A DNA stretch of 64,000 nucleotides from Glandiceps talaboti (taxonomy: Eukaryota > Hemichordata > Enteropneusta > Spengelidae): contig NC_135552.1 in NCBI RefSeq assembly GCF_964340395.1, positions 8,457,994 through 8,521,993 on the forward strand, read 5' to 3'. The translations under genes were made by a program, and so were the position numbers. The stretch's first letter is position 1, and each line of letters opens with the position of its first letter. Positions 18,814 through 55,042 of this stretch are shown here, in pieces. The notes beneath the pieces were generated by a model. The model ran no database searches. It had not been told where the DNA came from and saw only the letters and a list, made by a program, of their open reading frames with translations.

Positions 18814-19166
18814 ATGGCTGAAAACGACAAACCCCCCAAGAAAGCTCCAGTTGAAGGACATGTGGACATAGATGAATGTTTTGATGTCATGGTTGCAATT
18901 GCTAGAGAAGCAGGAGAGGTATTGAGATGACCAGTTATTTTTATAGACTAGTGTAGTGTATCCTGGTAGAAGAAGCAATATTTTCACATCTACAGCTTTA
19001 TAATTTTTAGTACAATCCTAACACAATACCTACCACCAACTTCCGCGCCGCCGTAGAAGCCCTAACTAATACTGCTTGAAAGAAGAGAACGTTATAACAT
19101 TGTACAGTGTACTTGATATGCAGTATCTATATTCTCATTGTAATTGTCCTATTTTTGTTCTTGTTC

Positions 19167-19225
<59 letters not shown>

Positions 19226-22200
19226 GGTGGTGGTGGTGGTGGTGGTGGTGGTGGTGGTGGTGGTGGTGGTGTGTCGTGTTGTGCGTTGCGTTGCGTTGCG
19301 TAAATTGTGTTGCGTTGTGTTGAGTTGTCTTGTCTTGTCTTAGTTTGTCTTGTAACGTAATTGGTCGATGTTTATGGTTATGCTGACGTATTGCTATAAT
19401 TTTATGGCAAGGATTTTTGCAAGATTATGATATTCCACCTTCAGAACTCCGCTTATAAAAAAATAAGACATTTTAAAATATGCTGAAAGAATTACTACAC
19501 AGCGTAGTGTGTACTCTGTAAACATAGACAAATTTTAGTTATAAATAAACAAAGTAACGACTGTGACAGTTGCCTCACTCCATATTGTTGATTGTAGTGA
19601 ACCGCCTATTGAGTTTGAAATGTCTGGGTTAATCACAAAGTATTGCATCATGGTATATTTACTTTAACACTATAAATTATCGTTTTACAGATAGTACGTA
19701 AAGCATTAGATTCAGATATAACCATAGAAGATAAAGGATGTTCTACAGATATAGTAACGGAAACTGATAAAAAGGTGGAAGAAATGATAATATCGAGACT
19801 TAAAGATAAATATCCACACAGCAGGTACGTCATTGATAATATCCAGACTAAGATATAAATATCCACACAGCAGGTACGTCAATGATAATATCTAGACTTA
19901 GAGATAAATATCCACACAGCAGGTACGTCAATGATAATATCTAGACTTAGAGATAAATATCCACACAGCAGGTACGTGAATGATAATATCCAGACTAAGA
20001 GATAAATATCCACACAGCAGGTACGTCAATGGTAATATCTAGACTAAGAGATAAATATCCACACAGCAGGTACGTCAATGATAATATCCAGACTTAGAGA
20101 TAAATATCCACACACCAGGTACGTCAATGATAATATCTAGACTTAGAGATAAATATCCACACAGTAGGTACGTCAATGATAATATCCAGACTTAGAGATA
20201 AATATCCACACAGCAGGTACGTCAATGATAATATCTAGACTAAGATATAAATATCCACACAGCAGGTACGTCAATGATAATATCCAGACTAAGAGATAAA
20301 TATCCACACACCAGGTACGTCAATGATAATATCTAGACTTAGAGATAAATATCCACACACCAGGTACGTCAATGATAATATCTAGACTTAGAGATAAATA
20401 TCCACACAGCAGGTACGTCAATGATAATATCTAGACTTAGAGATAAATATCCACACACCAGGTACGTCAATGATAATATCTAGACTTAGAGATAAATATC
20501 CACACAGCAGGTACGTCAATGATAATATCTAGACTAAGAGATAAATATCCACACACCAGGTACGTCAATGATAATATCTAGACTTAGAGATAAATATCCA
20601 CACACCAGGTACGTCAATGATAATATCTAGACTAAGAGATAAATATCCACACACCAGGTACGTCAATGATAATATCTAGACTAAGAGATAAATATCCACA
20701 CAGCAGGTACGTCAATGATAATATCTAGACTTAGAGATAAATATCCACACACCAGGTACGTCAATGATAATATCTAGACTAAGAGATAAATATCCACACA
20801 CCAGGTACGTCAATGATAATATCTAGACTTAGAGATAAATATCCACACACCAGGTACGTCAATGATAATATCTAGACTTAGAGATAAATATCCACACAGC
20901 AGGTACGTCAATGATAATATCTAGACTTAGAGATAAATATCCACACACCAGGTACGTCAATGATAATATCCAGACTTAGAGATAAATATCCACACACCAG
21001 GTACGTCAATGATAATATCTAGACTAAGAGATAAATATCCACACACCAGGTACGTCAATGATAATATCTAGACTTAGAGATAAATATCCACACACCAGGT
21101 ACGTCAATGATAATATCTAGACTAAGAGATAAATATCCACACACCAGGTACGTCAATGATAATATCTAGACTTAGAGATAAATATCCACACACCAGGTAC
21201 GTCAATGATAATATCTAGACTTAGAGATAAATATCCACACACCAGGTACGTCAATGATAATATCTAGACTAAGAGATAAATATCCACACACCAGGTACGT
21301 CAATGATAATATCTAGACTTAGAGATAAATATCCACACACCAGGTACGTCAATGATAATATCCAGACTAAGAGATAAATATCCACACAACAGGTGCGTCA
21401 ATGATAATATCTAGACTTAGAGATAAATATCCACACACCAGGTACGTCAATGATAATATCCAGACTTAGAGATAAATATCCACACAGCAGGTACGTCATT
21501 GATTATATCTAGACTTAGAGATAAATATCCACACAGCAGGTACGTCATTGATTATATCTAGACTTAGAGATAAATATCCACACAGCAGGTACGCCAATGA
21601 TAATATCTAGACTTAGAGATAAATATCCACACAGCAGGTACGTCAATGATAATATCTAGACTTAGAGATAAATATCCACACAGTAGGTACGTCAATGATA
21701 ATATCCAGACTTAGAGATAAATGTCCACACAGCAAGTACGTCAATAAATTGTCATTACCTTTGACAACTGAGGGGTAATACATACTCAAGGATGATTGAT
21801 TGCAGCTAATTATTACTTTTGGTATGTATCAATCAAACTGTTTTATCGTTATTTTTCTGACTAGCCGTGGTAGACACGAAGTGTCTTGAAATGGACAAAG
21901 ATCCTCGTTTATATGTATTCACGAACGGTCACGGTGTTTACAGTGAATTGGTTGCCATGGATATTGGAACAGAGAATAGCATTACATTCTTTATATTACC
22001 TTTTACTTTTGTAGTTTTATAGGTGAAGAATCCGTGGTTGTAGGCCAACAGAGTGAACTGACAGATAACCCTACATTTATTATAGATCCTATCGACGGTA
22101 CTACAAACTTTGTACATGGGTAAGTTCAAGTAATAATAAAAATGTATTTTATATAATGTGCATGTCCCCCGGATAGCTACAGTTGCCAGTAATTATTACC

Positions 22201-22587
22201 TCTGCTACGGATCTATAGCGACACAGTGATTCAATATACTCCATCAACTCCCTAGGGAGCATACAATCCATTGCAACCCAAGTAAGCACATTTTGATCAA
22301 AACATTCACATTGCAACATCTATCCTACCAGGTCCCCAATTATACAGCTGGGTTGACTGAGGCACAATCGTGTTTCAAATCTTGCCCAAGGATTTATTTA
22401 TTCAGAAACAAATGGCAGCTGTGATGTCTTGAATATTGTTATATCAGCAATTTTTATGATGTGATTGATGTTTCAATCACGAAATTCTAGACCTACTACT
22501 TCTAGTATACTGTTGTATATTTATGTGGTGCAGTAAAGGGATTGTGTACTGTATGTATGTATGTATGTATGTATGTATGTATGTATG

Positions 22588-22618
<31 letters not shown>

Positions 22619-23942
22619 CTATGTATGTAGGTACGCGCGCTCATATGTGTGTGTGTGCGCGCGCGCGCTCAAGTTACCCAATATAAGTGACTGTTTACTA
22701 TACTTTTGTTCCAGATTCCCCTATATTGCAGTATGCATTGCACTTTACATTAACAAGACAGCTGAAATAGGAATTGTTTATCAACCCATATTTGACAAAA
22801 TGTTTATGGCGAGACGAGGAGGAGGAGCATTTTGTAATAAGAAGAAACTGAAGGTTTCAGGACAGAAAGGTATGCTTGGCGTAAAGCACTATCACCTGAT
22901 ATATGATTGCTTTATGTCGTTATACATGTTTTTTTTTTAATTCACCACATATGCTGGAATTATACTGTGGACACTGATGAGAAAAGAAGTAGCACATCAC
23001 AAAAATGGCTTAGGTTATAATTCTTACGACCACTTGATTGTCAGCGAGACATAGTAGAACACATATTATATATTTATCCATGACACCTTCGCAATCTTTG
23101 TGTTTATTATCATAGGTGATTTCATTTTCAGATATCAAGAAAGCTCTGATATTTTCAGAATATCCACAAGTTCGAAACCCAATAGAAGTGGAAACAAGTC
23201 AGAAGAACAAAGAGAGATTGATAAGAGCCCATATTCATGGGTAAATAGCGTTTTAATGTTATTAGTTATCCTCTTCAAATTCACGAGTTTTGCCAGCACC
23301 CACCTGACATGTTACCCCCTTCAAAACAAAAATTGACTATCAAATGCTCCAAAGGGGAGAAAAAATGCTTGGACAAAATTTGATGTAAATGTGTTCAGTT
23401 AAATTCATTAAATAGCACCGAGCTGTACTATATATACAACTATCAATTATTATTGTACTACTCTCCATCCCGTTCTGTTGCGACAGCTCAGAACAAGGCA
23501 GATGTAACTTCAATCCTTGTACACAGGATTACATCTTCTTGCTCTCTAAGCCATCGATTGTACTATGAAACTATTAGCCATTAATAATCTATTCTCAGTC
23601 TTTACAATCTTTAACTACCAATCCTTGAGTTAGCCTGGTTGAATTAGTGTAAACAAATAACCTTTTTTTATGATTCAATATATGTTGCTTAGCATCAGAA
23701 CTTTGGGTTCGGCGGCATCAGACATATGTGCAGTGGCAGAAGGCCTTGCTGATTCATACTTTGGATATGGTCTCCATTGTTGGGATATGGCGGGCGCTGT
23801 ACTTATAATACAGGAAGCTGGTGGAGTGGTTTTAGATCCAGAAGGTACATCTATAACAAACACATATCGTCAAAAATCTTCCTCTACGTCACTGATACTA
23901 TTTCTTGAACCTCTCACAACATTTCAAAATATTCCTATCTCT

Positions 23943-24021
<79 letters not shown>

Positions 24022-24075
24022 TTATCTGTCTGTCTGTCTGTCTGTCTGTCTTTCTTAATATATATCTATCTCTCC

Positions 24076-24159
<84 letters not shown>

Positions 24160-24293
24160 TTATTTATTTATTTTCATTTATTTCAGGCGGTCCGTTGGAT
24201 TTGATGTCCCGTCGTGTTGTCACAGCCAGTTCTCAGGAGCTTGCTGACGCCATACGTGCTATGCTTATACACCTTCAACTACCACGTGATTAG
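18814..24293 (+). CDS. IMPA1: Inositol monophosphatase (IMPA1-type), copy 1
   Basis: Seven exons: 18814-18918, 19691-19824, 22015-22119, 22715-22869, 23132-23240, 23693-23844 and 24187-24293, all GT-AG and in frame. They encode 288 residues, close to vertebrate IMPA1 (277). The enzyme is a Mg2+-dependent, Li+-sensitive cytosolic phosphatase that frees myo-inositol from inositol monophosphates, feeding phosphoinositide synthesis. Visible motifs: IGEES (E84), [12 protein letters not shown] (D104, D107) and [15 protein letters not shown] (D234). These equal the metal ligands E70, D90, D93 and D220 of human IMPA1, shifted by 14. The C-terminal [10 protein letters not shown] is also family-typical. 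Intron 2 holds a 49-bp array that repeats the exon 2 end and its splice donor. A close tandem paralogue starts at 26535. Possible AATAAA at 24819-24824. Confidence 0.96.
19160..19271. repeat. (TTG)n followed by (GGT)n in IMPA copy 1 intron 1
   Basis: About 15 TTG units pass directly into about 20 GGT units, an abrupt switch of triplet phase and composition. Then come GTTGC pentamers and a TTGTC section. Confidence 0.95.
19776..21735 (+). repeat. 49-bp tandem array built from the exon 2 end plus its 5' splice site
   Basis: The founding unit is the 3' end of IMPA exon 2. It is followed by 39 further 49-bp periods with no net indel: the authentic donor GT is at 19825, the last array donor GT is at 21736, and 1911 = 39 x 49. 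Each unit reads about AATGATAATATC, then AGACTTAGAGATAAAT, then ATCCACACACCAG|GTACGTC, with CAGCAG/CACCAG and CTTAG/CTAAG variants. So intron 2 carries 40 near-identical consensus donors. Splicing at any donor after the first would read through an in-frame TAA at 19856-19858. Confidence 0.97.
22190..22420. repeat. Probable dispersed repeat in IMPA copy 1 intron 3
   Basis: It contains CTGGGTTGACTGAGGCACA and CTTGCCCAAGGA phrases of a kind I associate with interspersed repeats in marine animal genomes. No second copy was seen in this window, so the call rests on recall. Confidence 0.35.
22550..22617. repeat. (GTAT)n microsatellite
   Basis: About 17 GTAT units in intron 3 of IMPA copy 1, followed by a GCGC-rich stretch. 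Confidence 0.95.
23938..24175. repeat. (TTTA)n-(TGTC)n-(TA)n-(TTTA)n block in IMPA copy 1 intron 6
   Basis: It fills most of the 342-bp intron 6 and runs up to about 10 bases before the acceptor of the last exon (TTTCAG, ending 24186). The TTTA/TTTC-rich end must serve as the pyrimidine tract. Confidence 0.95.
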
Positions 24294-26534: not shown

Positions 26535-28881
26535 ATGGCTGAATTCGAAAATGGCGGTCCTTGCAAGAAAGCTCGAGTTGATACAAATATGGATATAGCT
26601 GAATGTTTTGATGTTATGGTGGGAATCGCTAGAGAAGCAGGGGAGGTACGTACTAGTATACTGCACATCGATGACTATAGATTAGTGAAATCACTCTGTA
26701 TAGAGATCCAATCGGTACTCTGTATGTGCGTTATACATAAAAAGAAACTCCCACTACCTCATTTTATTGGGTGTGAGTTTTCATACTTTGACCTTGACCT
26801 GGGGGGGGGGGGTCAATTATATATCAAAACATGATCATAGGTATTGGTCTGCATTGTATGAACTGTTTTAACTAAGATTTACTGACATTTAGGTTTAGTT
26901 TTCAACTATTGCCGTAGGTGGCGTGATACCAAAATGTAATATGATGGAAGATGATTTACTGCCATTTTACAGGTAGTACGTAAAGCATTAGATTCAGATA
27001 TAACCATAGAAGACAAGGGGTGTTCTACAGATCTGGTAACGGAAACTGATAAAAAGGTGGAAGAAATGATAATATCGAGACTTAGAGATAAATATCCACA
27101 CACCAGGTACGTCAATGATAATATCCAGATATAGAGATATATCCACCTAGTAAGTACGCCAATATATCATATATTTAGTAAATTGTTAATTTGTTTTAAT
27201 TGAGAAACCTCAAAAGTAAAAACAAATTCAATCTTTGGTTGGTACGAGGTCTATCAAAAATAAAACGCAAGAAAAGCTTCAAGTGCATTAAATTCTTACA
27301 CACATACACATAAAGTTCTTTTCTTCCTCTTTCGATTGAGAAACAGACATGTTTCAAACAAATAATTTGTCCTTCAGTGTCTAACCAGGATCTGACAAAA
27401 TGGTCTAAATTTGCTAGAAGTGTTGACAACTTGCATTCAAATCAAAAATATAAAAGTTCAACAGAAGAGCCACGCCAAATACAAATAACTGATGTGTATA
27501 TCTACCCCCACCCCACCCCACATTACTGTAAATAGTCTAAAAATAATGTTGAATAATCATATGCCTTTATTTGGACAGTTTTATAGCCGAAGAATCCGTG
27601 GTTGTAGGCCAACAGTGTGAACTGACAGACAACCCTACCTTTATTATAGATCCTATTGATGGTACTACAAACTTTGTACATGGGTAAGTCTCTCATCGTC
27701 TCAGCAACACCTAGAAATAAATTTTCTTTTGTGCTGTCTTCTTTGTTATCAACTGATTACAAGGCATGTTACAGTTTAAAGATGTATTTAAGACATGTCT
27801 ATAAATGAAACAACACACAGTGTTGTTACTATTGTTACTGTATTTGACAAAATATCACACCAAAAGAGGTATATATAAGTCACCTTGGAAATGTCTGAAT
27901 TATTTTGATGATAGACTTCAGTACAAAGGTGTGTCTACAACGTATTTGATTGATAGGTTTCCTTAGAAGAATGAAGAGTATATAAACTATTATAATGATT
28001 TCAAGTTTCGACTGGACATTATCTCTTTTCCAGATTCCCCTATATTGCAGTATGCATTGCACTTTACATTAACAAGACAGCTGAAATAGGAATTGTTTAT
28101 CAACCCATATTTGACAAAATGTTTATGGCTAGACGAGGAGGAGGAGCATTTTGTAATAAGAAGAAACTGAAGGTTTCAGGACAGAAAGGTTTGTACAAAA
28201 CACTTTGTACAGCTGTAGAAAAAATAGCTTATTTCTGTGACTTTATATTAGATAAATTTGAATGATAGTCCAGTGCGCATGTCCGCATGTTTTTTGTTTG
28301 TCGACAACACGATGCGTGACGTCATGATCACTCGAAAAGCTCTTTCCCATTCCAAGTTCTGACGATGATGTTGAATTTTATCTTAATTTGCATGATGTCA
28401 TATTTCAGTTGGAGCAAAAGTGTTTTATAGTAAACTTTGTACAATTTTCAACGGAAAAACTAAGGCGTCACTAGTTACTGTCTAGGTAATCGTAGCATGG
28501 GACCCCGAGGCGAACATGTATGTGTCGTAAACCGACAATCATAAAGCATTATAGAAACACATAACAAATTTAAATTGACAACAGCAATTCGCTTGGCATT
28601 TGTAAATTCAATCCATCTTTCCTCTCTAACCTTCTCATTTTCAGATCTTCGGAAAGCTCTTATTGTGGCAGAACACCCACAAATTCGAGATCCAGTAGAA
28701 ATTGAAGCAAGTCAGAAAAATTTGGAGAGTTTGATCAAAGCACCTGTTCATGGGTAAACAGGACATAATTATATCTACCATTATTCAATACCCTTTTGTT
28801 TGTGATTTACTACCTTCCAAGCTGGGGTGTATCTATGAAAATATATTATTTTGGTGAAGATGCAGTGACGATAGGGGCAGT

Positions 28882-28931
<50 letters not shown>

Positions 28932-30226
28932 CGTGTGTGTGTGTGTGTGCGTGTGCGTGTGTGCGTGTGCGTGTGTGCGTGCGTGAATAAATTTTCTTCG
29001 ACAATTTTAGATCAGACTTTAGCCTGTCAAAACTCAGACCCTAGGGTGAATGTCAAACATCGTTGTATGTAACTGAAAATTCTGCAATATAATGCTAACG
29101 TTGTATTTCAACTTAGTAGTCCCTTCATTCGGAACGTAATACAATCTTTTAGTGGATGATTCATATAATGAGTAATCCGTTTAAGGAAACCAAACCTGTC
29201 TCATCTCAGCTGCACCACCTGTCATTCCATATTCATAATTTATAAAGCAATACTGTTATGACTTGTTACAACTATGTAATGGGATGAAACATTTTGTTTA
29301 GCATCCGAACTCTAGGATCAGTAGCATCAGATTTATGTGCAGTGGCAGAGGGCGTTGTTGATGCTGACTTTGCATATGGTCTCCATTGCTGGGATATGGC
29401 TGGTGCTGTACTTATAATACAGGAGGCTGGTGGTGTAGTAATCGATCCAGAAGGTAAAACAAATTGAATATTGTTGCATTCTCAACGAGATTCCATCCAA
29501 CAGAAGATACAATAAAGTGTGTCTGTGCCAATTAATTAGGCCTACACAGACCCAGCTGCTACCCCTTCGAATTCGAATTCACGTCTGTTGTATTCCTGCT
29601 TGAAGACGGTGTTTTAAGTTAGGACTTGATACTGATATTGTCCTGCAGTTTGCAGGCGGTGTAAATCGAGAGTCGATTCTGATATTGTCTCATGTATAGT
29701 AGGCAAGTCACAATGTCAGGGGTACCCAGTCTGCAGGCAGGGTTATACTAACTGTGTTGTAATGTATTTCAGACGTGAAGTGGTTACTGATAGAGCGCTA
29801 TCTTACACGTATTACAGACTAACAGAGTCCAGTGTTTAATATTCTGTACATTGTACTAAACCTAAATATGAGTTTCATGTGGTTAGGTTAAATCTTGGGC
29901 ATTAATATTTGATCATTAAATTGTAATTTCTTTGCGGTTATTCATCTACACATTAGCGTCTAACCATTAACTTTAAGATTTGAACTTCAAATTTGCTTTT
30001 GGAAACATGACCTAAATTGAGTACACACATATCCTAACAGCGTTATACAAAACTGCACAATTGGTTGCTTTTTTTCAACTTTGTAGTATTCCTAATATTC
30101 TCATTTATATTTATTTCAGGGGGACCGTTGGATTTAATGTCACGTCGTATTCTCACAGCTGGCACCCAGGAACTTGCTGACGTCATAAGTCAAAAACTTA
30201 CACACCTTCAACTACCCCGTGATTAG
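26535..30226 (+). CDS. IMPA1: Inositol monophosphatase (IMPA1-type), copy 2
   Basis: Seven exons: 26535-26645, 26973-27106, 27579-27683, 28034-28188, 28645-28753, 29302-29453 and 30120-30226. They encode 290 residues. All exon lengths except exon 1 equal those of copy 1, and all splice phases are the same. The first coding exon begins exactly at the ATG, directly after a TTTCAG acceptor, so a 5' UTR exon lies upstream. Metal ligands are present: E86, D106 and D109 in [12 protein letters not shown], and D236 in WDMAGA. One change stands out: the motif before the catalytic Glu is IAEES, not IGEES. Exon 4 differs from copy 1 at 1 of 155 bases, while exons 5 and 6 differ far more. Function is expected to match copy 1; division of labour is unknown. 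AATAAA at about 30326-30331. Confidence 0.96.
27107..27156 (+). repeat. Single degenerate extra copy of the exon-end/donor unit in IMPA copy 2
   Basis: Directly after the donor of exon 2 comes GTACGTCAATGATAATATC, then AGATATAGAGATATATCCACC and TAGTAAGTACG. This is one worn unit of the 49-bp repeat that is expanded in copy 1. Confidence 0.8.
28884..28984. repeat. (GT)n microsatellite
   Basis: GT units with GC interruptions toward the end, in intron 5 of IMPA copy 2. Confidence 0.95.

Positions 30227-35040: not shown

Positions 35041-55042
<20,002 letters not shown>

Follow-up and report, generated by a model that had tools for sequence, protein, structure and literature searches.

How the spliceosome chooses one of 40 near-identical donors standing in register is a question for which an IMPA1-like gene of the hemichordate Glandiceps talaboti, here gene A, offers a natural test. 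The gene lies in a 64,000-nucleotide (nt) stretch of contig NC_135552.1 (the window, numbered from its first letter), and its second intron opens with a long tandem array of the 5' splice site. A neighbouring paralogue, gene B, carries one weak extra copy and serves as a control. The array is very probably a splice-site minisatellite ("mirage") seeded across the exon-intron boundary, and its first donor is most likely the only one that splices. It looks like a kind of repeat already described in lancelets, with close human analogues in the 31-bp repeat of CBS and in IFI6; its length, regularity and phylum are notable beside these known cases.

Gene A is an intact IMPA1-type gene with seven coding exons (18814-24293, plus strand).

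18814..18918, plus strand, coding exon 1 of gene A (the joined exons translate to P0001, 288 aa)
19691..19824, plus strand, exon 2 of gene A, 134 nt, the final 42 nt being the exonic part of unit 0
19825-22014, plus strand, intron 2 of gene A, about 2.2 kb
22015-22119, plus strand, coding exon 3 of gene A
22715-22869, plus strand, coding exon 4 of gene A
23132-23240, plus strand, coding exon 5 of gene A
23693-23844, plus strand, coding exon 6 of gene A
24187-24293, plus strand, coding exon 7 of gene A

The product is identical to the NCBI "inositol monophosphatase 1-like" record of this species, and that protein is the one obtained from the first donor. The Inositol_P domain (PF00459) covers residues 20-276, nearly the full length (E 2.8e-80), and the top match in the PDB is 2bji (E 5.5e-92). 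Exon 3 opens with TTTTATAG, giving the SFIGEES stretch present in the mammalian enzyme.

The array itself is regular. Tandem Repeats Finder describes it as period 49, 40.1 copies, 96% matches, 0% indels and score 3513 over 19783-21745. Each 49-bp unit joins the 42-nt end of exon 2 to the donor GTACGTC and so spans the exon-intron boundary. Forty units follow in register, numbered k=0 at the end of exon 2 and k=1 to 39 in intron 2.

19783..19831, plus strand, unit 0: exon 2 end and frame-keeping donor GTACGTC, GT at 19825
19832..21742, plus strand, 39 intronic 49-bp units, each with GT at 19825+49k
21694..21742, plus strand, terminal unit k=39, with the weakened donor CAAGTACGT
19856..19858, plus strand, in-frame TAA met by transcripts from any later donor

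An earlier note on this DNA had described 39 head-to-tail 49-bp periods at the start of intron 2, with donors at 19825+49k and no net indel, and this description holds, GT being present at the expected place in 40 of 40 units. Two of its measurements need adjustment: the exonic part is 42 nt, not about 41, and the array runs from 19783 to 21742, not 19776 to 21735, the repeat match extending three further bases (AAT) to 21745. The 40 units comprise 18 distinct sequences and vary at 14 of 49 columns (17 types and 13 columns for the 39 intronic units alone). Head-to-tail copying without indels is enough to explain the perfect register, which is no separate marvel; moreover, 13 variable intronic columns would represent few sampled mutations, so that the lack of indels seems unremarkable. 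No other tandem repeat that Tandem Repeats Finder reports in the window combines a unit above 18 bp with a copy number above four.

AG|GT is found in 39 of 40 units and the donor 9-mer CAGGTACGT in 35; the others have TAGGTACGT (k=7 and 38), CAGGTGCGT (k=32), CAGGTACGC (k=36) and CAAGTACGT (k=39). In U1 duplex energy the first donor (-8.1 kcal/mol) ranks second among the six donors of gene A. Among the intronic donors the energy is between -8.1 and -8.9 kcal/mol for 35, -7.3 for one, -6.5 for two and -2.8 for the last (k=39). A full open reading frame (ORF) is obtained from the first donor only (1 of 40, with the acceptor at 22015), as the earlier note had claimed. Translation from donors k=1-4, 38 and 39 gives a product that ends after 90 residues, and the remaining later donors also end after 90 codons because each includes the TAA at 19856-19858. 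A stop codon upstream of further introns exposes a transcript to nonsense-mediated decay (NMD), which is therefore expected for later-donor transcripts, since downstream introns follow.

These features are consistent with the following history. A 49-bp segment spanning the exon 2/intron 2 border would have been duplicated in tandem, the likely joint being the AAT common to the exon (19783) and the intron (21743). The new copies, being inside an intron, could drift without coding constraint and would have multiplied to 39 through slippage or unequal exchange. Splicing would still take place at the first donor, the array leaving with the intron. What would favour this donor is its position at the end of the 134-nt exon 2, with the native context of that exon upstream; with later donors the exon would grow to between 183 nt and about 2 kb, which exon definition should disfavour. 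Any transcripts made from them would carry the stop and be degraded by NMD.

The distribution of variants suggests that the array has been reworked internally. Mean differences from the consensus are 0.70 in the interior and 2.5 at the edges (a split chosen post hoc), a homogenised interior being typical of mirages. Unit types recur at lags 2 (p 0.0095), 5 (p 0.004) and 10 (0 of 2000 shuffles) among the 19 lags examined, and adjacent units are slightly more alike than in shuffled orders (1.87 versus 2.11 differences, p 0.037). We infer that multi-unit blocks were exchanged or copied, a process from which such a pattern is expected. Of four options offered in the earlier note, neutral expansion is the best supported, both by the unit pattern and by the donor columns, which show no extra conservation. 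Among the 39 intronic units, variation affects 4 of the 9 donor columns and 9 of the other 40 (Fisher p 0.22), a trend opposite to conservation. A selected donor ladder is without support, and nothing in the sequence speaks positively for the note's other options of a decoy, a source of NMD isoforms or a U1 array.

The paralogue adds a second view of the same donor. Gene B (P0002) lies 2.2 kb downstream in tandem, and is 83% identical to gene A.

26535..30226, plus strand, gene B, seven coding exons
27065..27113, plus strand, gene B counterpart of unit 0 (exon 2 end and donor, GT at 27107), differing from the array consensus at 1 of 49 positions
27114..27160, plus strand, single decayed intronic copy of gene B, donor TAAGTACGC, GT at 27154

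Gene A has 40 units and gene B two; instability of length is a trait of mirages. The intronic copy of gene B has a 2-bp deletion and nine substitutions relative to that gene's own exon copy (47 sites). The array consensus scores 44 against intron 2 of gene B (maximum 32 in 1000 dinucleotide shuffles) and 12-18 against the ten other introns of the two genes and the post-array part of gene A intron 2. When 45-nt queries were taken at the 24 splice junctions of both genes, only the intron 2 donor of gene A stood out clearly (78, 0 of 200 shuffles); the gene B intron 2 donor scored 28 (reached in 2 of 200) and the gene B intron 4 acceptor 22 (3 of 200). A search of both strands of the window for the unit, allowing substitutions only and up to 14 mismatches, listed just the gene B exon copy elsewhere; such a search misses copies with indels, such as the gene B intronic copy.

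Five of the nine changes between the exon and intron copies of gene B are variants also found in the array of gene A (P 0.0012, without a model of transition bias). This favours common descent of the array and the gene B copy, which could also be an independent duplication. The nearest array units (k=7, 8, 34, 38 and 39) each differ from the gene B copy at 7 of 47 sites. The final copy in both genes (21694-21742 and 27114-27160) has lost the G at donor position -1 (CAAGTACGT, TAAGTACGC), through either shared descent or selection against the donor closest to the acceptor.

Exchange between the genes obscures the age of the repeated donor. Synonymous divergence (dS) between the two genes is 0.12 in exons 2-4 (0.03 in exon 4) and 0.60 in exons 1 and 5-7, with synonymous changes at 10 of 85 versus 45 of 109 sites (rounded counts; Fisher p 5e-6). 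All six intron pairs align no better than the best of 50 shuffles (gene A intron 2 taken without its array). This combination suggests gene conversion confined to exons, possibly mediated by cDNA. A dS of 0.60 would predict more than seven differences in 47 sites (P 1e-4, with the closest of 40 units chosen), so that the repeated donor probably dates back at least to the most recent exchange involving this part of the genes. Since exons 2-4 have a dS of 0.12 against 0.60, the copy cannot be dated to the gene duplication, and the intronic copy and exon 2 may have been exchanged together later. At unit position 21 all 39 intronic units match the exon of gene B and not that of gene A, and at position 39 the 40 units comprise 20 C (as in gene B), 19 G (as in gene A) and one A. 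The exon of gene A would therefore have changed, or been changed, after the array was seeded.

Repeats of this build are reported from lancelets (amphioxus), where mirages occur in Adh3, globin and TnC genes and similar repeats in PGBD5 (PMC3087553, PMC3902484). The same two reports describe splicing as undisturbed at these boundaries, and PMC3902484 states that the Adh and TnC mirages "do not generate aberrant mRNAs". By this analogy, the first donor of gene A is most likely the donor used. As in lancelet BflGb6, as described there, homogenisation seems to act within the cluster and to leave out the boundary units. However, BflGb6 is given as 6 or 3 units of 150-160 bp and Adh3 as units of 10-72 bp, against 40 indel-free units in gene A, and the host here is a hemichordate. 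Literature searches, of which one named Glandiceps talaboti and none was aimed at hemichordates as a group, found no report of a hemichordate mirage. The present array suggests that hemichordates share such repeats with the lancelets from which they are reported.

Two human repeats are close analogues. The variable number tandem repeat (VNTR) of CBS, c.1444_1467+7(16_21), has a 31-bp unit in 16-21 copies (PMC2630376). Its variant name implies 24 exonic and 7 intronic nt per unit, with the donor repeated in each copy, and its units, as described, likewise vary by substitution at constant length; it differs in unit length, copy number (31 bp and 16-21 copies against 49 bp and 40 units) and in being described as polymorphic in people. 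The IFI6 unit is reportedly short, 12 bp. IFI6 (6-16) has a minisatellite with multiple splice donors (Turri 1995, cited in PMC4526556 and PMC2572611), the tandem unit there, as cited, giving repeated donors at an exon end as in gene A. More generally, PMC2812944 reports that internal tandem repeats at human exon-intron boundaries alter splicing.

Several observations weigh against a neutral minisatellite spliced at its first donor. Use of that donor is something we infer, and the NCBI annotation may itself rest on homology. The copy number comes from a single assembly. The 9-mer of the true donor is shared by 34 of 39 intronic donors, and in an array whose units have been homogenised the lack of donor conservation says little. 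Only 1 case of identical direct neighbours occurs, against a mean of 4.27 in shuffled orders, so that growth would not have been simple one-unit copying throughout. Finally, the analogous CBS VNTR is linked, in the title of Lievers 2001, with reduced activity.

The best surviving alternative, itself unlikely, is a copy-number rheostat: spare donors would catch some splicing, the TAA-bearing transcripts would be destroyed, and array length would tune the level of IMPA1. The identity of the donor 9-mer in 35 of 40 units, the TAA awaiting all 39 later donors and the CBS repeat of the same build speak for it, and in IFI6 two downstream repeat units reportedly serve as donors (PMC4526556), whereas in gene A later donors break the frame. 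On the other side, the donors are no more conserved than the rest of the unit, the lancelet mirages cited above are reported without aberrant mRNA, and, as a weak negative, a comparison with similarly long proteins in the protein collection yielded no candidate for the predicted 90-aa product. IFI6 and CBS, with outcomes opposite to those in lancelets, are the reason for not rating a rheostat lower. Its fullest form, in which the array is a heritable, copy-number-variable set of poison donors, more units giving less enzyme and the two-unit paralogue escaping the throttle, seems a shade less likely still.

An assembly artefact, with the array collapsed or expanded to a wrong copy number, is improbable. 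Tandem arrays are prone to such error, and one lancelet mirage was apparently misassembled in a draft genome (PMC3087553), but the 18 distinct units, their patterned variants and the related gene B copy argue that the array exists, with an exact length that is unproven.

U1 is known to protect transcripts against premature polyadenylation, and the 35 of 39 intronic donors at -8.1 kcal/mol or stronger could form a U1-binding array that shields the transcript in this way or boosts transcription. This is very improbable: gene B has one weak extra site yet intact exons, and the donor is not conserved.

Recursive splicing, with CAG|GTACGT units as ratchet points removing the intron stepwise, is the least probable of these readings. 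The earlier note had compared the units to recursive sites: the back-to-back AG|GT (39 of 40) and the poor pyrimidine tract it described both stand, but 19783-21760 contains no instance of Y5 N0-4 YAGGT, the motif of Hoppe et al. (PMC10156609). In the 17 nt preceding the last three intron bases, the 39 intronic units have 7-8 pyrimidines and 3-4 T, against 8-14 and 7-13 in the 12 real acceptors of the two genes; the consensus unit has no CTRAY or YTNAY branch motif, and the intron is only 2.2 kb. This case is not absolute, because PMC10156609 reports many claimed sites without a tract and sites in shorter introns.

A role for RNA structure is without support, three units (20322-20468) showing no gain in fold stability over shuffles (z 0.61; 150 of 200 equally or more stable) and the predicted accessibility of array donors (median 0.007) lying within the range of the 12 donors of both genes (0.0000-0.128). 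Intron gain by AGGT duplication, which resembles the array in its tandem AGGT-bearing copies (multiple in fission yeasts, 24 bp, as reported), is rejected, since the intron pre-existed at the identical position in gene B and the full ORF needs the first donor with acceptor 22015.

Elsewhere, the window is very rich in microsatellites, Tandem Repeats Finder giving 52 rows, some overlapping. Two minus-strand segments are parts of ABC transporter genes: 54407-55042 matches SUR2/SUR1 chains (E 5.9e-26; Pfam TMD0_ABC below cut-off) and 63104-63559 matches Pfam ABC_membrane; their order, judged by eye, suggests two genes. A 38-bp tandem repeat of 3.7 copies at 38670-38810 (Tandem Repeats Finder) may be intronic, just past a minus-strand exon that by eye is ABC-transporter-like and has no Pfam match.
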